A stretch of DNA of 64,000 nucleotides from Vibrio sp. 10N.286.49.B1 (lineage in GTDB: Bacteria > Pseudomonadota > Gammaproteobacteria > Enterobacterales > Vibrionaceae), in the NCBI RefSeq assembly GCF_002873335.1, contig NZ_MCUW01000007.1, positions 253,203 to 317,202 on the forward strand, in the 5' to 3' direction. The number at the start of each line of letters is the position of its first letter. The first letter of the stretch is position 1. The position numbers were made by a program, and so were the translations under genes. Positions 2,172 to 21,404 of the stretch are shown piece after piece. The notes beneath the pieces were generated by a model. The model made no database searches and was not told the origin of the DNA. It saw only the letters and a program-made list of their open reading frames with translations.

Positions 2172-2185
2172 TGTAAACGTTTCCA
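2172..2185. promoter_or_regulatory. GalR-type operator of the lac-type operon
   Basis: TGTAAACGTTTCCA is a near-perfect LacI/GalR-family palindrome centred on AAACGTTT. It lies 39 bp before the start codon of the binding protein. The same palindrome recurs at the mgl, galE and galR control regions of this window, pointing to the repressor encoded at 20.3-21.3 kb. Confidence 0.75.
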
Positions 2186-2223
2186 ATGCGAAATGAACTC
2201 CCTACATAAAGAGAATAATAATT

Positions 2224-3483
2224 ATGAAGAAGCATTTAATTAAAGGATTGGTCGCTACCGCTGTTGGCGTTGCTTGCTTAGGTCAAACGGCGTTTGCCAA
2301 AGATCTAACCGTGTGGGCGTGGGATCCCAATTTTAACGTCGCCATCATGAAAGAAGCCGCGGAGAAGTACGAGGCAAAGCACCCAGATGTGAATGTTAAA
2401 GTGGTCGATTTTGCTAAGGCCGATATTGAACAAAAGCTACACACCATGCTGGCTTCAGGCGTGACATCAGCATTACCTGACGTGGTGTTGATCGAAGACT
2501 ATAACGCACAAAAATACCTGCAATCCTATCCAGGTTCATTTGCTCCCATGACTGATGCTATCGATTATAGCCAGTTTGCCCCTTATAAAGTGAGCGTAAT
2601 GACACTCAATGACGAGGTGTATGGTTTACCGTTCGATACTGGTGTGACGGGTTTATATTACCGTACTGATATCATTGAAAAAGCAGGTTTTACTGCGAAA
2701 GATCTTGAGAATATTACTTGGGAACGTTTCATTGAAATTGGTCAACAAGTTAAAGAGAAAACCGGTATCGCGATGCTGGGTAATAACCCGTCTGATCTAG
2801 GTTTGTTACGTGTGATGATTCAAGGTGCTGGCAGCTGGTATTTTAATCAAGATGGTAGTTTGAATATCAAAGACAACCAAGCACTGATTGAAGGCATCAA
2901 AATTTTCCGCGACTTCCATGTTAAGGATATTGCTCGTCCAACGATAGGTTGGTCTGAGTGGGTAGGAGCGGTAAATAGTGGTGCGGTTGCCTCTATTACT
3001 TCAGGTGTTTGGATTACCGCATCGGTTCAAGCGGGTGAAGGACAAGAAGGTAAATGGGCAGTCGCGCCAACGCCACGATTGGACATTGAAGGCGCGGTGA
3101 ACAGCTCTAACCTTGGGGGATCAAGCTGGTATGTCTTAAATGCATCGCAAGAGAAGGCGGCTGCCATTGATTTTCTTAACGCGACATTTGGGACAGATAA
3201 AGAGTTTTATAATCAGATCTTGAAACAGCAAGGTGCGGTAGGCTCTTACTTACCCGCTGGTAATACAGAAGCGTATCAACATGAAGATGGTTACTTCAAT
3301 GGTCAGAAAATATACGCAGACTTCAATAAATGGGCTGCTGAAATCCCATCAGTCAACTACGGTATGTTTACCTATGAAGTGGATGCAGCAATTGCAGCGC
3401 AAATGCCATCTATCATGCAAGGCGCACCCGTTGAGAAAGTGCTAGAGAGCGTAGAGCAACAATTAAAATATCAGATCCAATAA
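2224..3483 (+). CDS. lacE: ABC sugar-binding protein, probable lactose/beta-galactoside (LacE-type)
   Basis: Periplasmic binding protein of 419 residues, family 1 (COG1653 type), which would deliver a beta-galactoside to the LacFG-LacK permease. A signal peptide of about 25 residues ends in TAFA, and the mature chain starts KDLTVWAWDPNF. The middle has the family's inner-lobe pattern (PDVVLIEDYNAQKYL, YGLPFDTGVTGLYYRTD). It is the first gene of a cluster with two permeases, LacZ and an ATPase, so the substrate is inferred from the adjacent beta-galactosidase. A GalR-type operator and a CRP-like site lie upstream. Other beta-linked oligosaccharides cannot be excluded. Confidence 0.82.
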   Translation: MKKHLIKGLVATAVGVACLGQTAFAKDLTVWAWDPNFNVAIMKEAAEKYEAKHPDVNVKVVDFAKADIEQKLHTMLASGVTSALPDVVLIEDYNAQKYLQSYPGSFAPMTDAIDYSQFAPYKVSVMTLNDEVYGLPFDTGVTGLYYRTDIIEKAGFTAKDLENITWERFIEIGQQVKEKTGIAMLGNNPSDLGLLRVMIQGAGSWYFNQDGSLNIKDNQALIEGIKIFRDFHVKDIARPTIGWSEWVGAVNSGAVASITSGVWITASVQAGEGQEGKWAVAPTPRLDIEGAVNSSNLGGSSWYVLNASQEKAAAIDFLNATFGTDKEFYNQILKQQGAVGSYLPAGNTEAYQHEDGYFNGQKIYADFNKWAAEIPSVNYGMFTYEVDAAIAAQMPSIMQGAPVEKVLESVEQQLKYQIQ

Positions 3484-3496
3484 CCGCTTTTCTTTT

Positions 3497-3543
3497 GCCC
3501 CCATTTCTGCTGCGAGTCAGGGTGGGGGCCTTTTCTTCTTTTA
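3497..3543 (+). terminator. Hairpin with T-rich tail between binding protein and permease genes
   Basis: GCCCCCA and TGGGGGC form a 7-bp GC-rich stem with a 19-nt loop, followed by CTTTTCTTCTTTTA. It starts 14 nt after the binding-protein stop. Such elements typically let most transcripts stop after the abundant binding protein while a fraction continues into the permease genes; that role is inferred here. Confidence 0.6.
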
Positions 3544-3554
3544 TTGGTGAGAGT

Positions 3555-4472
3555 ATGAGTGAATTAACTAAGACGGTTAAAACCACTAAAAAAAATAATA
3601 AAAATAGCTTTCAAAGATTCTATGATATAAACGGCTGGGGGTTTGTATTACCTGCAGTAATATTGGTTTCTTTGTTTATGATTTACCCAATCATAAGTTC
3701 GTTATGGATATCACTCCATTCTGGTCGCGGTATTGTTACGCAATTTGTAGGTTTTGGAAATATTGTTCGTTTATTTAATGATCCGGTTTTTCTTAAGGCA
3801 TTATCGAACACTTTCATATTTTTAATTATCCAAGTTCCAGTGATGATATTACTTTCGTTAGCTTTATCATCGTGCTTAAATGCCCCAAACCTTAAATTTA
3901 GAAGTTTATTTAGGTTGGCCATATTTTTGCCATGTGTGACCTCACTCGTGGCGTATTCCATTTTGTTCAAAAGCATGTTTTCTTACGAAGGCATTGTAAA
4001 CTCCTTCCTACTTTGGACGGGGCTGGTTGATGGGCCAATCCCATGGATGGCGGATCCTTTCTGGGCCAAGGTGACGATCATTATTGCAATCACGTGGCGC
4101 TGGACTGGCTACAACATGATCTTCTTCTTGTCTGCAATGCAAAATATCGATAAATCTATTTATGAAGCCGCTCGCATTGAAGGGGTTAGCCCAATTAAGC
4201 AGTTTTTCTTTATTACGGTGCCACTTTTAAAACCTGTTATTTTATTTACAACCGTAATGTCAACAATAGGAACATTACAACTCTTTGATGAAGTGGTGAA
4301 TATAACGGCTGGTGGGCCCGCTAATGAAACGTTAACGTTGTCGATGTATATTTATGATCTGTCTTTCAAATTTGTGCCTAACTTTGGTTATGCGGCGACA
4401 GTATCTTACGTCATTGTATTTTTTGCTGCCATTCTAGCCATGCTACAATTTAGAATTGCGAGGGACAAATAA
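3555..4472 (+). CDS. lacF: ABC sugar permease, inner membrane subunit 1 (LacF/MalF-type)
   Basis: Inner-membrane subunit of the predicted lactose importer, 305 residues from the chosen ATG (MSELTKTVK), which has GGTGAGAG as ribosome-binding site. An upstream in-frame start exists but runs through the hairpin and has no support. The chain has about six membrane segments and the EAA loop EAARIEGVSPIKQFFFITVP near the C-terminus, which contacts the ATPase. Its TAA overlaps the ATG of the next permease by one base, indicating translational coupling. The N-terminal 30 residues are rich in Lys and Asn, and local AT content is higher than in neighbouring genes. Confidence 0.85.
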   Translation: MSELTKTVKTTKKNNKNSFQRFYDINGWGFVLPAVILVSLFMIYPIISSLWISLHSGRGIVTQFVGFGNIVRLFNDPVFLKALSNTFIFLIIQVPVMILLSLALSSCLNAPNLKFRSLFRLAIFLPCVTSLVAYSILFKSMFSYEGIVNSFLLWTGLVDGPIPWMADPFWAKVTIIIAITWRWTGYNMIFFLSAMQNIDKSIYEAARIEGVSPIKQFFFITVPLLKPVILFTTVMSTIGTLQLFDEVVNITAGGPANETLTLSMYIYDLSFKFVPNFGYAATVSYVIVFFAAILAMLQFRIARDK

Positions 4473-5287
4473 TGAATAATAAAAATAAAGCCTTACGTTG
4501 GCTAATGTATCTATTTTTGTCATTATTCTCTTTAGTGTCATTGTTTCCATTTTATTGGATGGTTGTATCAAGCACCAATACCGCGACTCAAGTCAACACG
4601 GGTAAGTTTACGTTTGGTGATCAGCTATTCGTCAACCTAATGAAGTTGAATGAGCAGGTGGATCTCTGGCAGATTTTTTACAACACATCAAAAATTGCCA
4701 TTATTAGCACCTTGTTTACCTTGCTGCTGTCCTCCATGGCTGGTTATGGGTTTGAGATCTATAAAAGCAAGATCCGCGATCGCGTTTATAGTGCGATGCT
4801 CTTAACGATGATGATTCCCTTTGCAGCACTCATGATTCCGCTTTTTACCTTAATGGCAAAAGCCGGACTTTTAGACACGCACTTGGCGGTGATGCTGCCG
4901 ACCATTGCTTCTGTTTTTATTGTGTTTTACTTCCGTCAGTGCACCAAAGCCTTTCCGTCTGAACTCATTGATGCAGCGCGAGTGGATGGCGTGAAAGATT
5001 GGAAGATTTACCTCTTTGTTTACATGCCGGTAATGAAAACAACGTATGCAGCCGCATTCATTATTGTCTTTATGACGTCTTGGAACGCCTTTTTATGGCC
5101 GCTGATTGTTCTACAGTCAGCCGAGTTGAAAACGATCAACCTTGTATTGTCGTCGCTTTCTTCCGCTTACTTTCCTGATTTTGGCATCATCATGGTAGGG
5201 ACCGTTGTGGCAACGATACCCACCCTAGCCGTATTCCTTTTAATGCAGAAACAATTTGTGGCCGGCATGACTGGCTCTGTGAAATAG
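4472..5287 (+). CDS. lacG: ABC sugar permease, inner membrane subunit 2 (LacG/MalG-type)
   Basis: Second membrane subunit, 271 residues, CUT1 type. It has about six membrane helices, beginning LMYLFLSLFSLVSLFPFYWM, and the EAA loop variant DAARVDGVKDWKIYLFVYMP. The start codon overlaps the preceding stop. The gene ends 12 bp before lacZ. It should pair with LacF and two copies of the ATPase encoded after lacZ. Confidence 0.87.
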   Translation: MNNKNKALRWLMYLFLSLFSLVSLFPFYWMVVSSTNTATQVNTGKFTFGDQLFVNLMKLNEQVDLWQIFYNTSKIAIISTLFTLLLSSMAGYGFEIYKSKIRDRVYSAMLLTMMIPFAALMIPLFTLMAKAGLLDTHLAVMLPTIASVFIVFYFRQCTKAFPSELIDAARVDGVKDWKIYLFVYMPVMKTTYAAAFIIVFMTSWNAFLWPLIVLQSAELKTINLVLSSLSSAYFPDFGIIMVGTVVATIPTLAVFLLMQKQFVAGMTGSVK

Positions 5288-8413
<3,126 letters not shown>

Positions 8414-8493
8414 AAGCGTAACTTTCATTGAGCGAATCGTGAGCGATAGGCGAATACAAGCCACAACGCTCACGCGCTAACCCGTATTTTTCG

Positions 8494-8509
8494 CCTTGTA
8501 CTGACAAGG
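8494..8509 (+). repeat. Perfect hairpin between lacZ and lacK
   Basis: CCTTGT-ACTG-ACAAGG forms a 6-bp perfect stem with a 4-nt loop in the 125-bp gap between lacZ and the ATPase gene. No T-run follows, so it is not a standard terminator. It could protect or process the operon mRNA. Confidence 0.4.
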
Positions 8510-8538
8510 TGAGTGACAGAATTTTTAAAGGATAAAGC

Positions 8539-9624
8539 ATGGCGGATATTAAGCTTTCCAATGTGGTCAAAAGTTATGGCGACACTACGGTGATTCATGG
8601 TGTAGACCTTGATATTAAAAAAGGTGAATTTGTTGTTTTTGTTGGCCCGTCTGGTTGCGGAAAATCAACACTGCTTAGGCTCATTGCGGGGCTAGAAGAA
8701 ATCACTGACGGTGTGATGGAAATTGACAACCAAGTCGTGAACCATGTCGATCCCGCTGAGCGTGGGATCGCGATGGTGTTTCAATCTTATGCTCTCTACC
8801 CACACCTAACCGTGGAAGAGAATATGGGGTTTGGCATGAAGATGAATGGTTTTCCAAAAGCAGAAATCAAACAACGCGTTGATCGCGCCGCGAAAGCGCT
8901 ACAACTTGATCATCTTATGGATAGAAAGCCGAAAGATATGTCTGGTGGGCAGCGTCAGCGAGTTGCGATTGGACGTGCCATTGTACGTAACCCGAAAGTC
9001 TTCTTGTTTGATGAGCCACTGTCTAACTTGGATGCTGAGCTTCGTGTTGATATGCGCCTACAAATAGCAAGCCTGCATCGTGAGCTGGATACGACGATGG
9101 TGTATGTGACACATGACCAAGTGGAAGCGATGACGTTAGCCGATAAAATCGTTGTATTGCGTGACGGTAAAGTCGAGCAAGTGGGATCGCCATTGGAGTT
9201 ATATAATCATCCTGCCAATGAGTTCGTTGCTGGATTTATTGGTTCTCCAAAGATGAATATGTTGCCTGCCTTAGTCACTGCCGCCGACGAAGGAAACGTG
9301 ACGATATCATTACCTGATGGGCAGTCTGTGAGTATGAAAGCCGACAGTCGAGCGGTATCGGAAGGGGATAAAGTCAGCTTTGGCTTGAGGCCCGAACATA
9401 TTGCGGTTGATGGCAGCGGTGAGGCGACACTTCACTTCACTACTCATGCGGTCGAGCGCCTAGGAAATAGCACCTACCTGTTTGGGATGGCGGCTGGGTT
9501 TGATAACTATCGTGTACATATATCGGGTGATATAGAAGTCGCGAGGCAAGATGAACTGACTCTGAGCTTCAACCTAAGTGACTGCCACCTTTTCTTTGAT
9601 TCACTGTGTATTTCTAATGGCTAG
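8539..9624 (+). CDS. lacK: ABC transporter ATPase of the lactose importer (LacK/MalK/UgpC-type)
   Basis: ATP-hydrolysing subunit of 361 residues that would power the LacEFG importer. Walker A is GPSGCGKST (residues 36-44), the Q-loop FQSY (81-84), the signature SGGQ (135-138) and Walker B VFLFDEP (154-160), followed by the H-loop in VTHDQVEAMTLADK. The C-terminal third is a MalK-like regulatory OB-fold (FGLRPEHIAVDG). ATG is preceded by AAAGGATAAAGC. It is the last gene of the lac-type cluster, 125 bp after lacZ. An ATPase of this family can serve several importers, so it may not be dedicated. Confidence 0.9.
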   Translation: MADIKLSNVVKSYGDTTVIHGVDLDIKKGEFVVFVGPSGCGKSTLLRLIAGLEEITDGVMEIDNQVVNHVDPAERGIAMVFQSYALYPHLTVEENMGFGMKMNGFPKAEIKQRVDRAAKALQLDHLMDRKPKDMSGGQRQRVAIGRAIVRNPKVFLFDEPLSNLDAELRVDMRLQIASLHRELDTTMVYVTHDQVEAMTLADKIVVLRDGKVEQVGSPLELYNHPANEFVAGFIGSPKMNMLPALVTAADEGNVTISLPDGQSVSMKADSRAVSEGDKVSFGLRPEHIAVDGSGEATLHFTTHAVERLGNSTYLFGMAAGFDNYRVHISGDIEVARQDELTLSFNLSDCHLFFDSLCISNG

Positions 9625-9687
9625 ACGCGCCAGTAAGGCAAGTGCACGAGTTATATGGAGCCACTTAAACTGAGTTAACAACCCGTC

Positions 9688-9707
9688 ATCCCCTTGAAAA
9701 AGGGGAT
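9688..9707. repeat. Palindromic element (REP-like)
   Basis: ATCCCCTT-GAAA-AAGGGGAT is a perfect 8-bp stem with a 4-nt loop, flanked by CCCGTC on the left and CTTCATC on the right. Similar GTCATCCCC...GGGGATCT palindromes occur as dispersed intergenic elements in many gammaproteobacteria. It may end or stabilise the lacK transcript. Confidence 0.55.
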
Positions 9708-9860
9708 CTTCATCAGCGCGTTGTGAGCCTATTCTGGTGCCATTCATTTCTATTTAAGTGAGTCACACGCTGTGGGAAAGCTTCGTCTGCACTAGGGTGA
9801 GCATATTTGGACTTTGGGTATTTACGGTAAGTCACCCCGACAGGAGAGAATTACTTTAAC

Positions 9861-9884: not shown

Positions 9885-10000
9885 CCTTATCTCGCCCCAA
9901 AACGTTCAATTTTTATGGTAAATGATCAGACTTTACTGGCGCTGAACAAACTTTATTGTCCTCCGATAACACTATCAGGTCACATAAGTAAATGAGTGCT

Positions 10001-11344
10001 CTAAGTCAGCTGAAAACGCGTCCAGACTTTTGAGCGCCAGCGACGAATCATGACGATACCGCGTACCCATTCGTCCAACCCTATCGCGATCCAAGCACCG
10101 ATCACGCCATAGCCCCAATGAATACCAAACAAGTAGCTAAATAAGACGGCCACGCCCCACATGCTCAAGATACCCATTTGTACTGGAAATTTGATATCAC
10201 CAGAGCCCTTTAGGGCGGCAATAAAAATCAAGTTAGACACTCGTCCAGACTCAACAAAGAGAGAGCCTGCGATAAGCATGGCGACCAGAGCAACAATCTC
10301 ACTGTCTTGCGTAAATAGATCAATGAGTGGGTAGCGGAATAAAAATATGGCTAGAATGATACTAATAGATACCGCAAGGCCGACGAGGTAGTACTTTTGA
10401 ATTCGATGTAAAATATCGTCGGTCCAGCCTTTCCCTATAAAGTAACTGGTTTGGATTTGACCTGCTTGTCCTAGTGCGAGCGCAAAAGCAAACGAGACGC
10501 GAGTGATATTTTGCGAATACGTATAAGCAGCGAGTGACGATGTGCCCATCTGTACAACAAAATACACAATGGTCATTTGCGCTAGGTTATACGATAAGAT
10601 CTCTCCTGCATTCATTGCGCCAATCTTAACTATTTTCTTATAAAGCGCTTTAGGAATGATACGCCATTGTGAGAAAGGTAAATCAATGTTTTTTGACCGC
10701 ACCACTTGGCACATCAACAACGTCCCAATGAGTTGGCTGACCACAGTGGCCGTGGCCACACCACTCACACCAAATACAGGCAGACCAAAGGGCTGGTACA
10801 AAGCAATATAGTTACCAGCGATGTTAATCACACCGGCGATGAGGTTGATCACCATTGGCGAACGGGAGTAACCATGGCTGCGTAGTATCGTAGTGAGAAC
10901 AATGCCAATCGTCACATTGAAGGTCATTGAGCCACTAATGATGAGATAGTCATAGCCAAAGCCAGCAACTTCCTTCTCAAGCCCAAATAGTGAAATAAAT
11001 TGTTCGGCGCCCAGAAAGAGTGACAAGCTTAAAAAGCTACCCACTGCGCAAGCCAAGAGAATACTGGCTACGCCCACTTGGGCTGAATCAATAAAGCGTG
11101 ACGCGCCATTAAATTGGGCGATTAAAATCCCGGTCCCGCTACTAACCATCATAGAGACAACAATCAGGAAAAAGGTTATCTGAGTAATGACGCCCACCGC
11201 AGATACCGCGAGATCCGAATAGCCACTTAACATAAACACGTCGGTGGTATTGAGTGCGGTACGTAAAAGAACTTCAACGAAAATTGGCCAGGTAAGCGCA
11301 ACAATATTCATTCGTTTATTGAGCGTTGAAGCAGTTTTAGACAT
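10001..11344 (-). CDS. MATE-family efflux transporter
   Basis: Inner-membrane exporter of 447 residues with about twelve predicted membrane segments in two related halves (NorM/DinF superfamily), which uses a Na+ or H+ gradient to expel organic cations or other small molecules. Family features include the N-terminal IFVEVLLRTALNTTDVFMLSG and the central GVSGVATATVVSQLIGTLL. It lies between the lactose and galactose transport clusters and is divergent from mglB. A GalR-type operator lies 113 bp upstream of its start, so it might be co-regulated with the sugar genes. Its substrate is unknown, and a role in sugar export is only a guess. Confidence 0.85.
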   Translation of the reverse strand: MSKTASTLNKRMNIVALTWPIFVEVLLRTALNTTDVFMLSGYSDLAVSAVGVITQITFFLIVVSMMVSSGTGILIAQFNGASRFIDSAQVGVASILLACAVGSFLSLSLFLGAEQFISLFGLEKEVAGFGYDYLIISGSMTFNVTIGIVLTTILRSHGYSRSPMVINLIAGVINIAGNYIALYQPFGLPVFGVSGVATATVVSQLIGTLLMCQVVRSKNIDLPFSQWRIIPKALYKKIVKIGAMNAGEILSYNLAQMTIVYFVVQMGTSSLAAYTYSQNITRVSFAFALALGQAGQIQTSYFIGKGWTDDILHRIQKYYLVGLAVSISIILAIFLFRYPLIDLFTQDSEIVALVAMLIAGSLFVESGRVSNLIFIAALKGSGDIKFPVQMGILSMWGVAVLFSYLFGIHWGYGVIGAWIAIGLDEWVRGIVMIRRWRSKVWTRFQLT

Positions 11345-11456
11345 GAGATGACGCCTAGTGGTTCATGAGACTAAATTAAGGGCTGGCAAGTGTACTCAGA
11401 AAATAATCAAACACAATACTTGGTGAATGAATAGTTTTGGCTAGTTAATATAGATA

Positions 11457-11470
11457 TGTAAACGTTACCA
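11457..11470. promoter_or_regulatory. GalR-type operator (distal mgl / MATE side)
   Basis: TGTAAACGTTACCA is a member of the recurring palindrome family. Its centre is 231 bp from that of the operator at the mgl start of transcription, so it could act on the MATE promoter or in a repression loop with the mgl operator. Confidence 0.65.
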
Positions 11471-11641
11471 TTATTTGGTGTGCATTTTATAATCATAAAA
11501 ACAGAGATGTCACGGAAAAAAGGAGATATAGATCTCGATGTTACACTGTGAAACATTGAGAATGCTTGTTTTTGCTTCGTTTGTTAACTAATTCAAACAA
11601 TTTGAGTCCCAATTGACACTTTTTGTTACGGTTGTGAGTTT

Positions 11642-11657
11642 TTTTAACTTCCTCACA
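11642..11657. promoter_or_regulatory. Putative class II CRP site of the mgl promoter
   Basis: TTTTA-ACTTCC-TCACA matches eight of ten CRP core positions. Its centre (11649.5) lies about 41.5 bp before the start predicted from the TATAAT box downstream, the standard position for class II activation, and there is no good -35 box. A second partial site, TGTGA at 11635-11639, overlaps the same region. Confidence 0.5.
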
Positions 11658-11677
11658 TTAATTGTTCAATTTGTCAC

Positions 11678-11683
11678 TATAAT
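11678..11683 (+). promoter_or_regulatory. mgl promoter -10 box
   Basis: TATAAT, an exact consensus -10 hexamer, with transcription predicted to start near 11690. The -35 region (ACATTA at 17-bp spacing) is poor, as in CRP-dependent promoters. Confidence 0.55.
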
Positions 11684-11687
11684 TCGG

Positions 11688-11701
11688 GTTAAACGTTTTC
11701 A
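11688..11701. promoter_or_regulatory. GalR-type operator at the mgl start of transcription
   Basis: GTTAAACGTTTTCA carries the AAACGTTT core of the palindrome family and covers the predicted transcription start of mglB, so a bound repressor would block RNA polymerase. A weaker related sequence, CTAGAACGTTTTTA, follows at 11725-11738. Confidence 0.65.
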
Positions 11702-11781
11702 CGTTGAGCAATTTGTAAGCTGAACTAGAACGTTTTTACCCCTACAACTCAATTATAATATTAACAAATAGGACTTGTTCA

Positions 11782-12756
11782 ATGAGAAAGTTAACACTCT
11801 TGGCTGCACTGTGTGCTGGTATGGGCTTCGGAACTCAAGCGGTTGCAAGCACTACTGTTGGTTTTACAATCTATAAATATGACGATAACTTTATGTCGGT
11901 TGTTCGTCAGGCGATTGTGAAAGAAGCAGACAATGACAGCGATACTCGCGTATTGATGAATGACTCTCAAAACAGTCAATCAATGCAAAATGATCAAGTA
12001 GATGTCATGCTTGCTCGTGGTGTACAGGCGTTGGCAATCAACCTCGTTGACCCAGCAGCAGCACCAAGCATTATTAAGAAAGCGAAAATGGACGACGTGC
12101 CAATTGTTTTCTACAACAAAGAACCAAGCCGTAAAGCACTTGATAGTTACGATAAAGCGTATTATGTCGGTACCGATTCAAAAGAATCAGGCATTATCCA
12201 AGGCGATTTGATTGCCCAGCAGTGGAAGGCTAATTCATCTTGGGATAAGAATGGCGACGGCGTCATTCAATACGTTATGTTAAAAGGTGAACCTGGTCAC
12301 CCAGATGCAGAGGCGCGTACTTCTTATTCAGTAAAAACCATCAACGACAACGGAATTAAAACCGAAGAATTACACATGGATACAGGCATGTGGGATACCG
12401 CGATGGCAAAAGATAAGATGGATGCATGGTTGTCTGGCCCTAACGGTAGCAACATTGAAGTCGTTATCGCGAATAATGACGGCATGGCTATGGGCGCAGT
12501 AGAAGCTCTGAAAGGGGCGGGTACCGACATTCCTGTGTTTGGCGTTGATGCCCTTGCTGAAGCATTGGCGTTAGTTAAATCTGGCGCAATGGCTGGTACA
12601 GTTCTAAACGATGCGGATTCACAAGCAAAAGCAACATTTGAGCTAGCTCGTAACCTTGCAAACGGAAAAACAGCGACAGAAGGCACACAATGGGAAATGA
12701 CAGATAAAGTCGTTCGTGTCCCTTATGTTGGTGTTGATAAGTCAACGTTAGAGTAA
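11782..12756 (+). CDS. mglB: D-galactose/D-glucose-binding periplasmic protein
   Basis: High-affinity periplasmic receptor of 324 residues that delivers galactose or glucose to MglAC and is a chemotaxis receptor for Trg-type transducers in enterics. The signal peptide is about 22 residues (ending AVA), and the mature chain begins [17 protein letters not shown] as in enteric MglB. A calcium-binding loop is visible at residues 155-163 (DKNGDGVIQ). ATG is preceded by TAGGACTTG. It is the first gene of mglBAC, followed by a perfect hairpin, and sits behind a CRP-like site and GalR-type operators. Confidence 0.95.
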
Positions 12757-12898: not shown

Positions 12899-14407
12899 AT
12901 GGTTAATCAAGAACATGAATTCTTGTTAGAGATGACAGGGATTAGTAAAGAGTTTCCTGGGGTTAAGGCATTAGATAAAGTTAATTTAAAAGTTCGACCT
13001 AATTCTATTCATGCTCTTATGGGTGAGAATGGAGCTGGAAAGTCGACATTATTAAAATGCCTATTCGGAATATATGAGAAAAATGAAGGTGATATTGTCT
13101 TTTTAGGAAGTAATATTAACTTTCAATCATCAAAAGAAGCATTGGAATCCGGTGTTTCAATGGTTCACCAAGAATTAAATCAAGTACTTCAATGTACGGT
13201 GATGGATAACATTTGGCTTGGGCGATATCCTAAAAAAGGCTTCTTTGTCGATCACGATAAAATGTATCGTGACACAAAAGAAATTTTTGAAGAATTGGAT
13301 ATCAATATCGACCCCAAGGTTAAAGTAAGTACACTGTCTGTTTCTCAAATGCAGATGCTAGAGATCGCGAAGGCCTTTTCTTATGACGCCAAAATAGTCA
13401 TTATGGATGAGCCGACCTCTTCTTTAACTGAAAAAGAAGTCAACCATCTATTCACCATCATCAAAAAGCTGAAAGAGAAAGGCTGCGGTGTGGTGTATAT
13501 CTCCCATAAGATGGAAGAGATTTTTGCGATTTGCGATGAAATTACCATCCTACGAGACGGTCAATGGGTCATTACTCGTCCTCTACAGGGACTTGATATG
13601 GATGCCATTATATCGATGATGGTGGGACGTGAGCTGACGCAACGTTTCCCAGAGAAGAGTAACACCCCTAAAGAAATCGTTTTGGAGGTAAAAGGCCTCA
13701 CGGCATTGAATCAACCATCGATTCAAGATGTGTCTTTTGACTTAAAAGCAGGTGAGGTTCTTGGTGTTGCTGGCTTAGTTGGCTCTCGACGCACAGATAT
13801 TGTTGAAACGATATTCGGTGTACGTGAACGAAGTGAAGGTCAGGTTCTTCTTAACGGCAAAGAAATGAAAAACCGAGACGCCCACGAAGCGATTAATAAT
13901 GGCTTTGCTTTGGTCACGGAAGAACGTCGCTCTACTGGGATATACGGCAATCTAGATATCACTTTTAACTCCCTTGTGGCTAACGTCGATAATTATAAGA
14001 CTAAGTCGGGGTTACTCAGTAATAAGAAAATGAAAAGTGATACCCAGTGGGTTATTGATTCAATGAGCGTCAAGACACCATCTCATGACACCTCAATAGG
14101 ATCGTTGTCAGGTGGTAACCAGCAAAAAGTGATTATTGGTCGCTGGTTATTGACACAACCTGAAATATTAATGCTTGACGAACCTACTCGAGGTATCGAT
14201 GTCGGGGCTAAATTTGAAATCTATCAATTGATTCTTGAATTAGCTAAGAAAAATAAAGGTATTATTATTATTTCTTCTGAAATGCCAGAGTTACTAGGTA
14301 TTACTGACCGTATTTTAGTGATGAGTAATGGTCGAGCGGCTGGTGTCGTGGATACGAAAGAAACAACACAAAGTGAAATATTAGAGCTGGCCTCACGTTA
14401 CCTCTAG
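12899..14407 (+). CDS. mglA: Galactose/methyl galactoside import ATP-binding protein
   Basis: Fused double-ATPase of 502 residues that energises galactose import, class CUT2. The first domain has Walker [10 protein letters not shown] (residues 42-50) and Walker [11 protein letters not shown]. The second has the degenerate P-loop region [12 protein letters not shown], the signature LSGGNQQK and Walker [14 protein letters not shown], the normal asymmetry of this family. The ATG overlaps no other gene, and the gap to mglC is 10 bp. The 142-bp leader after mglB contains the hairpin and no clear gene. Confidence 0.95.
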
Positions 14408-14417
14408 GGAAATTATT

Positions 14418-15425
14418 ATGGACGCTATTAAATCATACGCAAAGAAGCATTTAACCGAAGGTGCGATCTATGCGGTTCTATTTATATTATTGGCAATTAT
14501 TATTGTTCAAGAACCCTCTTTTTTAAGTTTAAGAAACTTTAGTAATATCCTGACGCAATCTTCTGTTCGTGTCATTATCGCATTGGGTGTTGCTGGATTA
14601 ATTGTTACGCAAGGTACCGATCTTTCGGCAGGTCGTCAGGTTGGTCTCGCTGCCGTTGTATCCGCAACCTTGCTACAATCCGTGGACAACGTGAATAAGG
14701 TATTCCCTGGTCTAGGTGATATCCCTATCGTAGCGGTTATCGTTGTGGTTTGTGCGTTAGGTGCGATCATCGGTTTGATTAACGGTATTATTGTGGCTTA
14801 CTTAAAAGTGACACCATTTATCGCGACCTTGGGCACAATGATCATCGTTTATGGTGTGAACTCGCTTTATTATGATTCAGTTGGGGCTTCCCCGATCGCT
14901 GGCTTCGACGAGCGCTTCTCCGAATTTACCCAAGGGTTTATTCGTATGGGAGACTTCAGGCTTTCCTATATCACTTTTTATGCCATTATCGCCATTGTTT
15001 TCATGTGGGTTCTTTGGAACAAAACAGTCTTTGGTAAAAATATCTTTGCAGTAGGTGGAAACCCAGAAGCAGCCAAAGTATCGGGTGTGAATGTCCCTGT
15101 GACACTGCTTAAAGTGTATGCATTATCGGGTGTATTCTATGGGTTTGCCGGTATGTTAGAAGCGGGCCGAATTGGCAGTGCAACTAACAACCTCGGCTTC
15201 TTATATGAGCTAGATGCTATCGCGGCTTGTGTGGTTGGTGGTGTCTCCTTTGCTGGTGGTGTGGGGAGTATTGCTGGTGTGGTTACCGGGGTGCTTATCT
15301 TTACTGTTATTAACTATGGGATGACCTATATTGGTGTTAACCCTTATTGGCAGTACATTATCAAGGGGTCAATCATCATCTTTGCGGTGGCCTTAGATTC
15401 GATGAAGTACGCGAATAAAAAGTAA
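14418..15425 (+). CDS. mglC: Galactose/methyl galactoside permease
   Basis: Inner-membrane subunit of 335 residues with about ten hydrophobic segments, CUT2 permease family (RbsC/XylH/MglC). Recognisable stretches are QGTDLSAGRQVGLAAVVSAT, ATLGTMIIVYGVNSLYYDS and GGNPEAAKVSGVNV. GAAATTATT precedes ATG, 10 bp after the mglA stop. A strong terminator follows directly, closing the mglBAC operon. Confidence 0.95.
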   Translation: MDAIKSYAKKHLTEGAIYAVLFILLAIIIVQEPSFLSLRNFSNILTQSSVRVIIALGVAGLIVTQGTDLSAGRQVGLAAVVSATLLQSVDNVNKVFPGLGDIPIVAVIVVVCALGAIIGLINGIIVAYLKVTPFIATLGTMIIVYGVNSLYYDSVGASPIAGFDERFSEFTQGFIRMGDFRLSYITFYAIIAIVFMWVLWNKTVFGKNIFAVGGNPEAAKVSGVNVPVTLLKVYALSGVFYGFAGMLEAGRIGSATNNLGFLYELDAIAACVVGGVSFAGGVGSIAGVVTGVLIFTVINYGMTYIGVNPYWQYIIKGSIIIFAVALDSMKYANKK

Positions 15426-15434
15426 CGACCTATA

Positions 15435-15467
15435 AAAGGGCTATCGATTCGATAGCCCTTTTTTTTA
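15435..15467 (+). terminator. Rho-independent terminator of mglBAC
   Basis: AAAGGGCTATC and GATAGCCCTTT pair around a GATT loop, followed by an unbroken run of T. It begins 10 bp after the mglC stop. Confidence 0.92.
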
Positions 15468-15483
15468 CGTGTTACTGAATGTT

Positions 15484-15498
15484 TGTAACCGTTTTACA
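15484..15498. promoter_or_regulatory. Upstream GalR-type operator of galE (external operator)
   Basis: TGTAACCGTTTTACA is an operator-like inverted repeat with one extra base compared with the others. Its centre is about 66 bp before the predicted galE transcription start and 97 bp from the downstream operator, a spacing compatible with repressor looping. Confidence 0.6.
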
Positions 15499-15506
15499 TC
15501 AAATGG

Positions 15507-15522
15507 AGTGACGGTGATCTCA
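15507..15522. promoter_or_regulatory. Putative CRP site of the gal promoter
   Basis: AGTGA-CGGTGA-TCTCA matches eight of ten CRP core positions. Its centre (15514.5) lies about 42 bp before the start predicted from the -10 box TATCAT, the class II position also used by E. coli galP1. Confidence 0.6.
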
Positions 15523-15544
15523 TTTTTAAGCAGTTATCCGCCCT

Positions 15545-15550
15545 TATCAT
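15545..15550 (+). promoter_or_regulatory. gal promoter -10 box
   Basis: TATCAT matches the -10 consensus at five of six positions and is placed correctly relative to the CRP-like site. Transcription would start near 15557, leaving a leader of about 165 nt before galE. Confidence 0.5.
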
Positions 15551-15579
15551 TATTAGCGAGCCTGTTTTTTTAATTTTCT

Positions 15580-15595
15580 GTGTAAACGTTTACAC
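15580..15595. promoter_or_regulatory. Downstream GalR-type operator of galE (perfect palindrome)
   Basis: GTGTAAACGTTTACAC is a perfect 16-bp palindrome, the best copy of the operator family in the window, about 31 bp downstream of the predicted start of transcription. It matches the internal-operator position of the E. coli gal operon in general layout. Confidence 0.8.
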
Positions 15596-15720
15596 TTTGA
15601 GAGTTTAGTCACAGATCGATCTTGATGACTGTTGCTACAATTTGCTTAGTTTAAATAAATAGCGCGAATTCACGGATCAAACATCGTGAATTAAAGGCAG
15701 ATAAAATCTAGGAGCGGAAT

Positions 15721-16737
15721 GTGAAAGTACTCGTGACAGGTGGAATGGGTTACATCGGTAGCCATACATGTGTGCAAATGCTAGAGAGTGGCATTGAACC
15801 GGTAATTATTGACAATCTTTGTAACGCCAAGCAATCCGTACTTTCCAGAATTAAAGCGCTCAGTGGTCAAACACCAACGTTTTATCATGGCGATGTCCGC
15901 GATGCCGAATTGCTTGAACGAATCTTCTCCGAACATGATATCCAATCCGTCATTCATTTTGCTGGTTTAAAAGCGGTGGGCGAATCAGTCGTTAAGCCTA
16001 TTGAATATTATGATAACAATGTAGCGGGTACGCTGGTGTTAGCCAATGCGATGCGAAATGCAGGGGTTAAAAGTATCATATTTAGCTCTTCTGCAACCGT
16101 CTATGGCGATCCTGAGATTGTGCCGATTACTGAGAATTCACCAGTGGGTAAGACGACTAACCCTTACGGCACGAGTAAATTCATGGTTGAACGCTGTTTA
16201 AGTGATGTCTTCACCTCCGACGAAGAATGGAGCATTACGTTGCTGCGGTACTTTAATCCAGTAGGAGCGCATCCGTCAGGAACGATGGGAGAAGACCCGC
16301 AAGGGATCCCAAATAATCTCATGCCATTTATTGCTCAAGTCGCCGTCGGTCGTCGTGACAAACTCTCCGTATTTGGTGACGACTATGACACACCTGATGG
16401 AACGGGAGTTCGTGACTACATCCACGTTATGGACCTAGCCGACGGGCATGTCGCGGCATTAAAAGCAGTAGGGCAAAAACAAGGCCTACATATCTATAAT
16501 CTCGGTACCGGTAAAGGAAGCAGCGTTTTAGACATGGTCGAGGCATTCAGCCTAGCATGTGGTAAGCCTGTCCCGTATGAGCTACACCCAAGGCGTCCTG
16601 GTGACATCGCAGAATGCTGGGCGAGCACGGCAAAAGCCGAGGCTGACTTGAATTGGAAAGCAAGCCGTTCTCTACGAGATATGACGGCTGACTCTTGGCG
16701 CTGGCAATCGAATAACCCGAACGGTTACGAGGAGTAA
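15721..16737 (+). CDS. galE: UDP-glucose 4-epimerase
   Basis: Cytoplasmic NAD-dependent short-chain dehydrogenase of 338 residues that interconverts UDP-galactose and UDP-glucose in the Leloir pathway and for surface polysaccharides. The glycine motif GGMGYIG lies at residues 7-13. The catalytic Ser is in FSSSATVYGD, and Y149 and K153 lie in NPYGTSKF, the same positions as in E. coli GalE. Translation starts at GTG with AGGAGCGGAAT before it. It is the first gene of galETKM. Confidence 0.96.
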   Translation: MKVLVTGGMGYIGSHTCVQMLESGIEPVIIDNLCNAKQSVLSRIKALSGQTPTFYHGDVRDAELLERIFSEHDIQSVIHFAGLKAVGESVVKPIEYYDNNVAGTLVLANAMRNAGVKSIIFSSSATVYGDPEIVPITENSPVGKTTNPYGTSKFMVERCLSDVFTSDEEWSITLLRYFNPVGAHPSGTMGEDPQGIPNNLMPFIAQVAVGRRDKLSVFGDDYDTPDGTGVRDYIHVMDLADGHVAALKAVGQKQGLHIYNLGTGKGSSVLDMVEAFSLACGKPVPYELHPRRPGDIAECWASTAKAEADLNWKASRSLRDMTADSWRWQSNNPNGYEE

Positions 16738-16814
16738 CGACTGCGGTAGATTGAACAAAGTTATAAATCTTGTGTTTTTCAAAGCGCTCGGCGCTGACGT
16801 ATTGAGTAAAGATA

Positions 16815-17867
16815 ATGTCGAATATTGAATTTAATCCTGTTGATCATCCACATCGTCGCTATAACCCATTAACTGGGCAGTGGATCCTTGTTTCTCCTCA
16901 TCGAGCCAAACGACCATGGAGTGGCCAGAGCGAAGAGGTGTCGAATGTTCAGATTCCTCACTATGATGCTGGTTGTTTTTTGTGCCCAACTAATGAGCGT
17001 ATTTCAGGTGATATCAATCCTGATTACAAGGGCACGTACGTTTTTAAAAATGATTTTGCGGCGTTGATGCCTGATTCACCTGATGCCCCTGAATCGACAA
17101 ACCCTTTATTTAAAACTCAAGGGGTGCGTGGTCTAAGTCGCGTGATTTGCTTTTCTCCCGACCACAGTAAGACGTTGCCAGAGCTTCCGCTTTCTGCATT
17201 GCGTTGCGTTGTAGATACATGGAATGAACAAATCGAAGAATTGGGACAAGATTATGTCTGGGTTCAAGCCTTTGAGAACAAAGGCGAGGCGATGGGCTGC
17301 TCACAACCGCACCCTCATGGTCAGGTTTGGGCCAACAGCTTTTTACCCAATGAAATCGAACGTAAAGACCGTCTAATGCGAGAGTATTACGCCGAGCAAG
17401 GTAGCAACCTGTTAGTTGATTATGTTACATCCGAAATGAAAGATGGGGCACGTACTGTCGTTGAAACCGAGCATTGGTTAGCAGTTGTGCCTTATTGGGC
17501 GGCCTGGCCATTCGAAACGATGCTATTACCTAAGGTACATATCCGCCGGATGAGTGAGCTGAGTGAGGAGCAAAAAGATGACCTCGCTGTAGCGATTAAA
17601 AAATTGACCGCACGTTACGATAATTTGTTTGAGTGTTCTTTCCCTTATTCCATGGGCTGGCATTACGCGCCGTTTTTTGATGAGGGAGAAGGGATTGAGC
17701 ACTGGCAGCTGCACGCCATGTTTTATCCGCCATTATTACGTTCTGCGACAGTTCGTAAGTTCATGGTGGGTTACGAAATGTTGGCGGAATCACAGCGTGA
17801 TTTGACTGCAGAGCAAGCCGCTGAACGCCTTCGTTCTTTAAGTGATGTGCACTATAAGCAACAATAA
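16815..17867 (+). CDS. galT: Galactose-1-phosphate uridylyltransferase
   Basis: Cytoplasmic HIT-superfamily enzyme of 350 residues that swaps UMP between UDP-glucose and galactose-1-phosphate. The active-site triad His-Pro-His is at residues 166-168 in [12 protein letters not shown], with H168 as the nucleophile that carries UMP. Cys-54 and Cys-57 (CFLC) and downstream His residues resemble the metal sites of the E. coli enzyme. It lies 77 bp after galE in the same direction without a terminator between. Confidence 0.96.
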
Positions 17868-17890
17868 AACCATGAATTTATAAGTTTGAT

Positions 17891-17911
17891 GCATCGAGCA
17901 TAGCGCGATGC
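17891..17911 (+). repeat. Hairpin between galT and galK
   Basis: GCATCG and CGATGC form a 6-bp stem in the 69-bp galT-galK gap, 26 bp before the galK start. It could affect galK translation; no T-run follows. Confidence 0.35.
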
Positions 17912-17936
17912 CTCTGATATTTGAGAGTTATTATCT

Positions 17937-19091
17937 ATGAATGATTTAATCCAAAACGTAGCGAATGCCTTTACTCGAGTTGTTGGACATAAGCCCGCTC
18001 ACTTTGTACGAGCGCCTGGTAGAGTGAACTTAATTGGTGAGCATACCGACTATAATGATGGTTTTGTTTTGCCATGTGCCATTAACTATCAAACGATGGT
18101 TGCAACGACTAAGCGTGATGACAATATCGTAAGAGTCATCTCCGTTGATTATCAAGATGCAGTTGATGAGTTTGATATCACCCAAGAGATTTCGTTTCAG
18201 CCTAATAAAATGTGGGCGAACTATATCCGTGGCGTGGTGAAGTTCTTACTTGTACGCGGCTATAAGATCGGCGGTGCTGATATTGCGGTGTCAGGTAATG
18301 TACCGCAAGGCGCTGGCTTAAGTTCTTCCGCTGCGTTAGAGGTCGTGATAGGGCAAACCTTTAAAACTCTTTATGATTTAGACATTTCACAAGCTGACAT
18401 AGCCTTGAATGGTCAACAGGCTGAAAACGAGTTTGTGGGCTGTAACTGCGGTATCATGGATCAGCTTATTTCAGCAGAAGGTCAAGAGCATCATGCCTTG
18501 CTTATTGATTGTCGAAGCTTAGAAACACGCGCGGTTTCAATGCCAGAAGATATGTCTGTCGTCATCATTAACTCCAATAAACAGCGTGGCCTTGTTGATA
18601 GCGAATACAACACGCGCCGTGAACAGTGTGAAGAAGCCGCACGTATGTTTGGTGTGAAAGCATTGCGAGATGTCACGCTTGAACAATTCAATGACCGCAT
18701 TGATGAACTTGATGCTGTTGTCGCCAAACGTGCTCGCCATGTCATTACTGAAAACGACCGCACAGTTGAGGCTGCCGATGCACTTAGTCGCGGTGATATG
18801 AAGCGCATGGCGCAATTGATGGAGCAGTCTCACGTATCGATGCGTGATGATTTCGAAATCACAGTAAAAGAGGTCGACACGGTTGTTGATATCGTTAAAG
18901 GTGTGATTGGTGACCAAGGTGGTGTTCGCATGACGGGAGGAGGCTTTGGGGGCTGTATCGTTTCATTAGTTCCGCCTGCTCTTGTTGATGACATAGTGGC
19001 AGCACTGGATGAACAATATGAAGCCGCAACCGGCCTCAAAGAGTCTATCTACGTGTGCCAAGCAAAAAATGGTGCTGGTGTTATCTCATAA
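17937..19091 (+). CDS. galK: Galactokinase
   Basis: GHMP-family kinase of 384 residues that phosphorylates alpha-D-galactose at C1. The galactokinase signature [19 protein letters not shown] is near residues 28-46, the ATP-binding loop is [11 protein letters not shown], and the third GHMP motif is [10 protein letters not shown]. The position between galT and galM is the classical order. The start has a weak leader (GAGAGTTATTATCT). Confidence 0.97.
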
Positions 19092-19100
19092 GGAAGCGTC

Positions 19101-20171
19101 ATGTCTATTTCGATGGTTGATACGTTGACGGCTATGCAAGTACCTGACGGTAATCCTGTTGAGCTTATTGAATTAAGTAATGTCAACGGGATGGTGATTG
19201 GCGTGCTTGATGTTGGCGCGACGTGGGTCAGTTGCAAGGTTCCCCTTGATGGTGAGCCTGATGGTTGTCGAGAGGTCTTGCTGGGTTGCTTGGATTACAC
19301 TAAGCAAGTCAGCTACATGGGGGCGACGGTTGGCCGCTATGCCAATCGCATCAAGGCTGGGCAATTTTCTATCGAAGCGGATACTTATCAATTGGCTTTG
19401 AACCAAGCGGGCAATACGTTGCATGGTGGCAGCGACGGCTTCGATAAGCGTCGTTGGCAAGTGTTGGCGCAGGGAGTCAGTTTCGTTGAGTTGAAACTTT
19501 GCTCCGCTGATGGGGATCAAGGCTTTCCTGGAAATCTTACTGTCATTACCCGTTATGATCTGACCGATGACAATGAGGTGGTGATCAGCTATCGAGCGAC
19601 GACCGATTCGCCAACCGTGGTGAATCTAACCAATCATGCCTATTTTAACTTGCTGGGTGCTGAGAGCGGACAAGACTGTTTGGGACATCGTTTGATGGTC
19701 AACGCTGACCAGTTTTTGCCGTCCGATGAAAAGGGGATCCCACTGGGTGAACTGCAATCGGTGGTGGGCACGAGTTTTGATTTTAACGAATCAAAGCGTA
19801 TTGACACGCATTGGATGCAAGATGAGCATCAACAGCGTGCAAAAGGGTACGACCACTCCTTCTTGCTTAACCACGATGGCTTGGATGACAGACCTGTCGC
19901 CTATGTCCATTCCCCTGATGGCGCTTTAACGCTACAGGTATTTAGTAATAAACCTGCGATGCAGTTGTACACGGGAAATTACCTTGCTGGAACGCCAAAT
20001 CGCTCCAAGGGGTGCTATACCGATTACGCAGGGTTTGCATTAGAAACTCAATTCTTACCTGATTCACCTAACCATCCTGAATGGCCGCAGCCTAGCTGTA
20101 TTCTCCAGCCAGATCAGGAGTACTGGTATACGACGAGCTACCGCTTTGACATCTCGGGGGAGGAGTCATAG
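19101..20171 (+). CDS. galM: Aldose 1-epimerase (galactose mutarotase)
   Basis: Beta-sandwich enzyme of 356 residues that converts beta- to alpha-galactose, needed because LacZ releases the beta anomer and GalK takes the alpha anomer. Family motifs include NRIKAGQFS, NTLHGGSDGFDKR, the catalytic-His stretch NLTNHAYFNL and the catalytic Glu in ALETQFLPDSPNH. AAGGAAGCGTC precedes ATG, 9 bp after galK. It is the last gene of the gal operon, closed by a strong hairpin. Confidence 0.95.
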   Translation: MSISMVDTLTAMQVPDGNPVELIELSNVNGMVIGVLDVGATWVSCKVPLDGEPDGCREVLLGCLDYTKQVSYMGATVGRYANRIKAGQFSIEADTYQLALNQAGNTLHGGSDGFDKRRWQVLAQGVSFVELKLCSADGDQGFPGNLTVITRYDLTDDNEVVISYRATTDSPTVVNLTNHAYFNLLGAESGQDCLGHRLMVNADQFLPSDEKGIPLGELQSVVGTSFDFNESKRIDTHWMQDEHQQRAKGYDHSFLLNHDGLDDRPVAYVHSPDGALTLQVFSNKPAMQLYTGNYLAGTPNRSKGCYTDYAGFALETQFLPDSPNHPEWPQPSCILQPDQEYWYTTSYRFDISGEES

Positions 20172-20230
20172 AGGTAGCGCGTTGCCTTTACTTATTACTC
20201 GTTTGAGTAAGGGGGGAACAGAATAAGAAT

Positions 20231-20270
20231 AACCCCAGCTCGTCTTAATTTGAGCTGGGGTTCTTTTATT
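20231..20270. terminator. Terminator between convergent galM and galR
   Basis: AACCCCAGCTC and GAGCTGGGGTT form an 11-bp perfect stem with a 10-nt loop, followed by CTTTTATTTG. It lies 59 bp after galM and ends close to the galR stop, so it can serve the forward operon and perhaps galR. Confidence 0.85.
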
Positions 20271-21267
20271 TGATTCTTTCGACTGAATTGCGCTGAACCA
20301 AGGTTGGAGAGTAAACCAGCAGATCTTTATCGATGGTTTCATTGTTCGACAAAGAAATTGCAATTTGCGCCGCTTTTTCCGCCATCATTTTAATTGGGTA
20401 GCGAATCGTCGTGAGGCGTGGATATAAATATTTTGCAATTAATGCATCGTCAAAGCCGATAATCGACATCTGATTAGGCAGCTCAAATTGGTTTTCTTCG
20501 AGCACTGATAGCGCACCTGCCGCCATATTATCGTTGTAGGCCACGATGGCCGTTATCGGCAATGATTTTGTGAGTAGGTTTGTCATGGCTTTTTCGCCAC
20601 CATCACTGTCCGGCTCACCATATTCGATATAGCTTTTCGAAAGCTCGATATTATTGGCTTTGAGCGCTTCAAGATAACCTGCAAGGCGTTGATCCACATC
20701 TTCAATTTGATGAGATGAAGAGATGCACGCAATGTTGGTATGACCGTGACGGATGAGTTGCTCAGTGGCGAGGTAAGCCCCTTTATAATTGTCTAAGGAT
20801 ATACAGCGACCGGGAAGCTCTGGAATATTTCGGTTAATGTATACCAATGCCTTCACTTCTTCGGCATAGCGAATGAGTTCTTCGTCAGGCAGTGCCTTCG
20901 AGTGAATGACCAATGCATCGCAACGGCTGTTAATCAGCAGCTCAATTGCTTGTCTTTCTTCTTCGGCGTTGTGGTAGCCATTACCAATTAATATATGTTT
21001 ACCATGCTGGTGTGCCACATCATCGACCGCTTTCACCAATGTTCCGAAAAATGGGTCGGAGACATCACTTACCAATACACCCACGGTTTTAGTGCTTTGA
21101 CTGACGAGGGCTCTGGCATTGGCGTTAGGTCGATAACCAAGTTTTTTCATTGCGGCAGTGACCGACGCAATCGAAGCGGCACTCGCTTTGGGTGAGTTAT
21201 TGGTTACTCGAGAAACGGTGGCGACTGACACCCCAGCTTCTTTTGCGACATCTTTTATCGTTGCCAT
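20266..21267 (-). CDS. galR: LacI-family transcriptional repressor, GalR-type
   Basis: DNA-binding repressor of 333 residues. The LacI-type helix-turn-helix and hinge are at residues 1-58 (MATIKDVAKEAGVSVATVSR, then NANARALVSQSTKTVGVLV), followed by a periplasmic-binding-like effector domain. I chose the ATG giving MATIKDV, which has AGAGGTG before it; the frame stays open another 58 codons upstream but that stretch overlaps the operator. The gene faces galM. Operators of the GTAAACGTTTAC type occur before the lac, mgl and gal operons and before this gene, so it most likely represses all of them and itself, with galactose as inducer. Confidence 0.9.
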   Translation of the reverse strand: MATIKDVAKEAGVSVATVSRVTNNSPKASAASIASVTAAMKKLGYRPNANARALVSQSTKTVGVLVSDVSDPFFGTLVKAVDDVAHQHGKHILIGNGYHNAEEERQAIELLINSRCDALVIHSKALPDEELIRYAEEVKALVYINRNIPELPGRCISLDNYKGAYLATEQLIRHGHTNIACISSSHQIEDVDQRLAGYLEALKANNIELSKSYIEYGEPDSDGGEKAMTNLLTKSLPITAIVAYNDNMAAGALSVLEENQFELPNQMSIIGFDDALIAKYLYPRLTTIRYPIKMMAEKAAQIAISLSNNETIDKDLLVYSPTLVQRNSVERIK

Positions 21268-21390
21268 CTGACACCTCTTTTTATTTATAGAGTTATTAAA
21301 CGCTTGTCGTGTAAATATCGCAATCAATGTTTCACAAAATTGAACATTATGTGATGTGTGATGACATGCCCTGTGTGGTTTTAGGCTATA

Positions 21391-21404
21391 TGTAAACGTT
21401 ACAC
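21391..21404. promoter_or_regulatory. GalR-type operator upstream of galR (autoregulation)
   Basis: TGTAAACGTTACAC lies 124 bp before the galR start and just outside the terminator of the PTS gene. It belongs to the recurring operator family and suggests the repressor controls its own gene. Confidence 0.7.

Follow-up and report, generated by a model that had tools for sequence, protein, structure and literature searches.

How is a lactose operon controlled when no repressor gene of its own lies beside it? Textbooks illustrate the dedicated repressor with LacI, which serves the lac operon of Escherichia coli. In a 64,000-nucleotide stretch of the genome of Vibrio sp. 10N.286.49.B1 (contig NZ_MCUW01000007.1, positions 253,203 to 317,202; the window), a lacEFGZK-type operon lies in one island with mglBAC, galETKM, and the gene for a GalR-type regulator of the LacI family, here termed GalR1 (Table 1). 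A first-pass annotation had proposed that lac is merged into the gal regulon, and our analysis agrees in part: a GalR-type regulator and one operator family are found at lac, mgl, gal, and galR, and the operator recurs at all 17 close copies of lacE. Judged from sequence, lac is very likely a member of the GalR regulon. Since lac has no adjacent repressor gene and carries the operator of the galactose genes, the galactose repressor probably runs it.

The lac promoter of close relatives carries a GalR-type operator

The LacE protein was searched in 227 genomes of the same genus and matched at an E value of ≤1e-60 in 19 of them. In 17 of the 17 copies with at least 63% identity, an operator with ≤2 mismatches starts 44 to 115 bp before lacE; its form is TGTAAACGTTTCCA in 13 copies, TGTAAACGTTACCA in two, and TGTAAACGTTTTCA and TGTAAACGATTACA in one each. 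None of five distant lacE paralogs (54 to 56% identity; L114 included) has the operator. (G, C, and L numbers are our handles for genomes, contigs, and loci.) Linkage of lacE to lacZ was examined for 14 of the 17 copies, those in G002, G083, and G185 sitting on fragmentary contigs, and the 14 loci were viewed in longer stretches (12 to 20 kb, or the window). The order lacEFGZK is found in 13 of them; in G010, LacZ is separate from lacEFGK and has its own site.

The neighborhoods of these loci were searched for LacI-family genes, using as queries 11 of the 17 LacI-family proteins of this genome and three of E. coli. Neither this genome nor any of the 13 other stretches has such a gene immediately next to lac. 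Three lac-type copies, L139, L140, and L218 of S. meliloti, differ in that their stretches do include a LacI-family gene, of another kind, and all three lack the operator. The lac variant of the 14-mer is also the operator of the gal operon in other Vibrionaceae, e.g., V. harveyi and V. sinaloensis, and E. coli MG1655 has TGTAAACGATTCCA before galE, which we take to be the external operator.

Control regions of six syntenic genomes, the window included, were then aligned, and all six island sites were conserved as footprints; because these genomes are close relatives, six of six does not equal six independent events. In every aligned genome the lac site is TGTAAACGTTTCCA and the distal mgl/MATE site is TGTAAACGTTnnCA, while the proximal mgl site retains TAAACGTTTTCAC, the weak gal site TGTAAyCGTTT, and the galR site TGTAAACGTT. 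The main gal site is TGTAAACGTTTACA, with TGTAAGC in one genome. In other GalR loci, a site with ≤2 mismatches precedes galR in 11 of 36.

Spacing is conserved as well. The two mgl sites lie 230 to 232 bp apart in all six genomes, which is only suggestive of looping, and the two gal sites lie 97 to 100 bp apart. From the center of the main gal operator to a −10-like TACAAT the distance is 48 bp in five genomes and 49 bp in the other, which would put this operator ~60 bp before the inferred start. The E. coli gal operator also lies ~60 bp before its start. At lac, the operator would overlap the transcription start if a conserved upstream TGnTAnnnT is the −10 element. The possible auxiliary lac operator at 1972 has two mismatches to the E. 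coli GalR consensus, critical positions ignored. A similar element stands at −191 to −200 in 6 of 14 genomes, by a pattern that was defined after the alignment was seen, and is reversed in this genome.

Strict matches to the operator are largely specific, and weak matches are at background

The first-pass annotation had described six near-identical palindromes, with none noticed elsewhere in the window. All six exist, one or two bases to the right of where they had been placed, but "near-identical" was too strong: with GTAAACGTTTAC as the reference, the mismatches are one at lac (GTAAACGTTTCC, position 2173), two at each of the mgl sites (GTAAACGTTACC, 11458; TTAAACGTTTTC, 11689), three and none at the gal sites (GTAACCGTTTTA, 15485; GTAAACGTTTAC, 15582), and three at galR (GTAAACGTTACA, 21392). 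Uniqueness in the window holds at zero to one mismatch, where only the lac and main gal sites are found; two-mismatch matches also occur outside the island, at 43656 and 46051. At ≤3 mismatches the window has 34 matches versus a shuffled mean of 30.3, and 34 was reached in 23 of 100 shuffles. The window is thus at background for this threshold, and three-mismatch sites, taken alone, carry no weight.

The E. coli GalR consensus, GTGNAANC.GNTTNCAC (PMC5110547), was also applied. At ≤3 mismatches, 6 of 34 matching window positions fall inside the island's four control regions, which together span 1,347 of the 64,000 bp; two of the six, 1972 and 2073, were absent from the first set of sites, and 15485 and 21392 are not included. 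Under a strict rule from the same source, in which positions 3, 5, 9, and 15 are intact and ≤2 other mismatches are allowed, four window places qualified versus 2.1 expected in random sequence, the lac and main gal sites among them. Position 11456 fits the strict consensus rule with three mismatches, while 11687, 15484, and 21390 fail it yet are conserved.

Two further candidates were rejected. A match at 15740, which resembles the intragenic galE operator of E. coli, results from conserved glycine-rich GalE codons and is without the central CG. The phosphotransferase system (PTS) gene at 21553-23445 was dismissed as a target of the 21390 site because its 3′ end, not its promoter, faces that site.

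Genome-wide, this strain has TGTAAACGTTTMCA at three places only: lac, gal, and the melB gene of a second galactoside cluster (see below). Across 15 lac-bearing genomes the 14-mer was located at 40 places, versus 2 for the reversed control, and 36 of the 40 are at galactose or galactoside genes. As assigned by tblastn and family search, 12 are at lac, 14 at gal, and 8 in alpha-galactosidase/MelB clusters (7 with GalR2); the remainder are at two other lacZ genes, two other sugar ATP-binding cassette (ABC) operons, one LamB-like porin gene, and one glpD. Restriction of the motif to such promoters therefore holds for exact TGTAAACGTTTMCA but not for looser forms: TGTAANCGNTTNCA is found exactly at nine places in this genome, only lac, gal, and melB among them being known galactoside promoters, and the motif with three mismatches is at background.

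These counts bear on whether the sites are real. An origin by chance, or as operators of other LacI-family regulators such as PurR- or CytR-like proteins, is highly improbable for them. Background frequency at ≤3 mismatches, in the window and in the genome, would fit such an origin, as would the AAACGTTT core, which LacI-family operators share. Opposed to it are the footprints at six sites, the 17 of 17 lac promoters, the 40 places against 2, and the identities of the regulators, as GalR1 and its paralog GalR2 alone among the LacI-family proteins of this genome exceed 50% identity to E. coli GalR. We rejected a chance origin on conservation and the strict genome-wide count, although weak matches do not exceed background.

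GalR1 is the likeliest reader of the lac site, and a paralog may share it

GalR1 is 54% identical to E. coli GalR, and its recognition helix, VSVATVSRV, is that of E. coli GalR and GalS. It had been described as the only LacI-family protein of the island. That is correct for this genome's island; genome-wide, however, there are 17 LacI-family genes, one of which is represented by a DNA-binding domain in the window outside the island (~59551-59688) and one of which encodes GalR2, a GalR paralog with similar operators.

GalR2 lies on another contig, where its gene has as neighbors the genes for a MelB symporter, a GH36 alpha-galactosidase, and another LacZ, which scores 1608 bits against the LacZ family (L141, G000:C89:244000-258000). 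Its recognition helix, VSIATTSRV, has two differences from that of GalR1 in nine residues, and the operators of its cluster include TGGAAACGTTTACA and TGGAAACGTTTCCA, closely similar to those of the island. In a tree of 76 proteins, which has long branches elsewhere, GalR2 forms its own supported clade (100/100, 9 rows); GalR proteins identical in L147 and L018 and in L145 and L020 were not counted as independent. GalR2 probably governs the separate LacZ2/alpha-galactosidase/MelB cluster.

The paralog undercuts the idea that one repressor serves all of these genes, since the lac site could also be bound by GalR2 and the genome has another LacZ outside the island. Control of lac by both GalR1 and GalR2, or chiefly by GalR2 where it is present, is a tentative alternative that we do not favor. 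E. coli GalR and GalS have operators in common, and the similarity of GalR2 and of its operators to those of the island would allow the same here. The lac site combines a TGTAAAC half with a TGGAAAC half, and the GalR2 clusters of G022, G065, and G089 have two sites each identical to the lac site, the far sites standing before MelB. Against this, GalR2 is found in 6 of the 14 lac genomes; the other 8 have no GalR2-clade protein but do have the lac operator, whose letters are unchanged in 6 of the 8. In four of these eight (G062, G215, G124, and G145), GalR1 is the sole GalR-like match (E ≤ 1e-70) and the lac site TGTAAACGTTTCCA is kept. The asymmetric lac site recurs at gal operons, and nearly so before E. 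coli galE, and G215 is without GalR2 yet keeps the site at its MelB gene. Because the lac site is kept where GalR1 is the sole GalR-like match, GalR1 alone is probably sufficient for lac and is its likeliest reader; where GalR2 is present, it may share the site.

A more elaborate arrangement seems unlikely: an interlocked network in which the lac operator is a hybrid of a GalR1 half (TGTAAAC) and a GalR2 half (TGGAAAC), read by both proteins or by a mixed dimer, and in which the MATE transporter exports surplus sugar or a by-product.

Other LacI-family and GalR-like genes were seen in passing. The closest protein to E. coli LacI in this genome (34%; L002, G000:C1 near 126249) is encoded away from lac, next to an alpha-galactosidase-like gene that has 53% identity to that of L141. 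In L173 (G028:C3:9492-10283), a partial GalR-like copy has two stop codons and is probably a decayed paralog. In several Vibrionaceae (G124; gal loci such as L028, L029, L036, and L048), another LacI-family gene (23 to 26% to GalR2) is divergent from gal across the gal operator, and those gal loci also hold a distant LacZ-like gene (32 to 39%).

The island as a probable enlarged galactose regulon

With good confidence we regard the island as an enlarged galactose regulon run by GalR1. GalR1 would be a galactose-responsive repressor acting on TGTAAACGTTTMCA-type operators at lac, MATE/mgl, gal, and galR. When galactose is absent, GalR1 dimers would cover the lac and mgl promoters and sit upstream of the gal promoter, and the paired sites (mgl, ~231 bp; gal, ~97 bp; perhaps lac, ~200 bp) could join dimers via DNA loops, as in E. 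coli gal. Galactose, whether taken up through Mgl or split by LacZ from a galactoside that the cell has imported, would bind GalR1 and free the operators, so that uptake, cleavage, and the Leloir pathway would be induced jointly. The galactoside operon would in this way sense its own product, galactose, rather than allolactose. Galactose is described as inactivating E. coli GalR (PMC4693257).

Several observations weigh against this proposal. Four of the six sites have two or three mismatches. Genome-wide, matches to TGTAAACGTTTACA with ≤3 mismatches number 224 each way versus 289 in the reversed control, and TGTAANCGNTTNCA with one mismatch gives 60 and 54 versus 65 and 62. In V. methylphosphonaticus (L019), the mgl sites have three mismatches each, though they are 231 bp apart. 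A promoter scan gave no plus-strand promoter at lac and did not list the TGnTAnnnT element. The operator that E. coli has inside galE has not been preserved: its central CG is lacking here and in the seven other galE starts compared. GalR1 scores 463.9 bits versus an NCBIfam GalR equivalog cutoff of 557, though GalR is its best family; for this reason we call it GalR type and do not file it as the equivalog. LacI-family genes of another kind do occur in these loci: one lies between galM and galR in G022, G089, and G215 (28 to 30% to proteins of this genome), and another in G124 (24% to GalR2) adjoins gal, beside a LacZ-like gene of 39% (L215 1-2955). Where GalR2 is present, in 6 of 14 genomes, it could also act on lac.

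Finally, a LysR gene (961-1893) stands directly upstream of lac and in this clade may also act on it. That it is the main control of lac, with the operator secondary, is nevertheless distinctly unlikely. The gene is adjacent to lac and conserved at 62 to 69% in five syntenic relatives, but its match is weaker in G124 (49%) and none was found in seven other stretches (~3 kb upstream), while the operator is present in all 14; moreover, the gene is co-directional with lac, not divergent from it.

Comparison with known systems

The island resembles the E. coli GalR/GalS regulon (galE, mglB, galP, galS, and galR promoters) in regulator type, an identical recognition helix, an operator consensus that the lac and main gal sites fit, and the inclusion of mgl and gal. 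It differs in adding a LacZ operon with an ABC importer, in having its second gal site ~97 bp upstream where that of E. coli is inside galE, and in containing neither galP nor galS. As in E. coli lac, LacZ would be under a LacI-family repressor; unlike that system, the island has no LacI gene beside lac, an ABC importer replaces LacY, the operator is of the GalR type, and the expected inducer is galactose, not allolactose.

In Streptococcus thermophilus, a GalR-named regulator is described as activating a gal-lac operon through an operator that is an 11-bp inverted repeat (PMC6090898). That system likewise has one GalR-named regulator for gal and lac, but its gene set is another (lacSZ) and its GalR is an activator. 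In V. parahaemolyticus, a study of galactose use describes galETKM without mglBAC, and neither GalR nor lactose appears in its main text (PMC6537148).

Two of 99 plasmid records with a lacE relative were compared, a rhizobial one from S. meliloti (L218) and Klebsiella aerogenes plasmid p35 (L217). Both share the ABC-plus-GH2 layout, although identity between their GH2 enzymes and the LacZ proteins of these genomes is only ~27%. In L218, the nearby LacI-family gene is unrelated and no GalR-type operator is present. Plasmid p35 (L217 7275-16737) has a lacEFG/GH2/K operon with a GalR-type gene (62% to E. coli GalR) beside it, an alpha-galactosidase-like gene, and the GalR-type sites TGTAATCGATTACA and CGTAATCGTTTACA, and is a possible parallel case.

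Among the literature matches listed, titles and abstract openings do not report GalR control of lac in Vibrio; an earlier prediction is possible in the supplements of PMC4052901, which treats 27 GalR regulons in gamma-Proteobacteria. The regulatory link has good comparative support and relies on a known mechanism; what is new is the likely place of a LacZ operon in the GalR regulon of this group and a probable overlap between two GalR paralogs. LacZ appears here to be wired into the regulon of its product, an arrangement conserved over a range of species. Natural comparison sets exist, namely, lac-type operons with another LacI-family gene nearby and no GalR site, lac operons that have the site in genomes with a single GalR-like protein, and lac operons that have it in genomes with two, so that the rewiring of a catabolic operon is testable from promoter sequences and simple reporter assays.

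Genes of the island and the substrate of its importer

Features are listed in Table 1. "Lactose" as the substrate of the importer would follow from the presence of LacZ, and we see about an even chance that the natural substrate is another galactoside, e.g., galactosylglycerol or a beta-galactoside of algae. The sea contains little lactose, and the lacE-like protein has by sequence only remote relatives among solved sugar-binding proteins (best E value, 5e-23). We found no specific point against such a substrate, and the regulatory claim is unaffected by it.

Table 1. Operators and genes of the lac-mgl-gal island, with GalR2
Feature	Position	Strand	Sequence, family, or remark
Possible auxiliary lac operator (weak)	1972..1987		GTGTAATCATTACCAC; ~200 bp upstream of lac operator
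lac operator	2172..2185	+	TGTAAACGTTTCCA; starts 52 bp before lacE start codon
lacE-like periplasmic sugar-binding protein	2224..3483	+	PF13416, PF01547
lacF-like ABC permease	3495..4472	+	
lacG-like ABC permease	4472..5287	+	
LacZ beta-galactosidase	5300..8413	+	NF007074, 1525 bits (cutoff 1221)
lacK-like ABC ATPase, MalK/UgpC type	8539..9624	+	
MATE-family transporter	10001..11344	-	Divergent from mglB; common operator-bearing control region (11345-11781)
Distal mgl/MATE operator	11457..11470	+	TGTAAACGTTACCA
Proximal mgl operator	11687..11702	+	GGTTAAACGTTTTCAC; directly after TATAAT
mglB galactose-binding protein	11782..12756	+	NF011924 above cutoff
mglA ATPase	12899..14407	+	NF008215 above cutoff
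mglC permease	14418..15425	+	NF007014 above cutoff
Weak upstream gal operator	15484..15498	+	TGTAACCGTTTTACA; right half displaced one base
Main gal operator	15580..15595	+	GTGTAAACGTTTACAC; matches E. coli GalR consensus perfectly
galE	15721..16737	+	
galT	16815..17867	+	
galK	17937..19091	+	
galM	19101..20171	+	
GalR1, GalR-type LacI-family regulator	20266..21267	-	PF00356 and PF13377 above cutoff
galR operator	21390..21405	-	Left half TGTAAACGTT; ~123 bp before galR start
GalR2	C89:253549-254538		58% identical to GalR1

In 9 of 14 lac genomes the MATE gene and its divergent partner, mgl in six and gal in G077, G158, and G220, have one operator-bearing control region in common. The transporter is a possible exporter in the galactose regulon; we do not claim established membership because MATE copies without mgl or gal as the divergent partner (G124, the second G010 copy, and L042 of V. 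superstes) have no site with ≤2 mismatches within 400 bp. The contig of G215 (L127 ~7900) lacks mglB, as well as the 180 N-terminal residues of mglA, between mglA and this control region, through a deletion or an assembly fault, while the control region itself is present.

A further match is left unassigned. At C12:51633, TGTAAACGTTAACA is intergenic in a sulfoglycolysis-like cluster (L142, G000:C12:47000-56000) that contains a sulfolactaldehyde reductase above cutoff, a mannose-isomerase-like protein, a class II aldolase, an aldose epimerase, and a TauE-type exporter.

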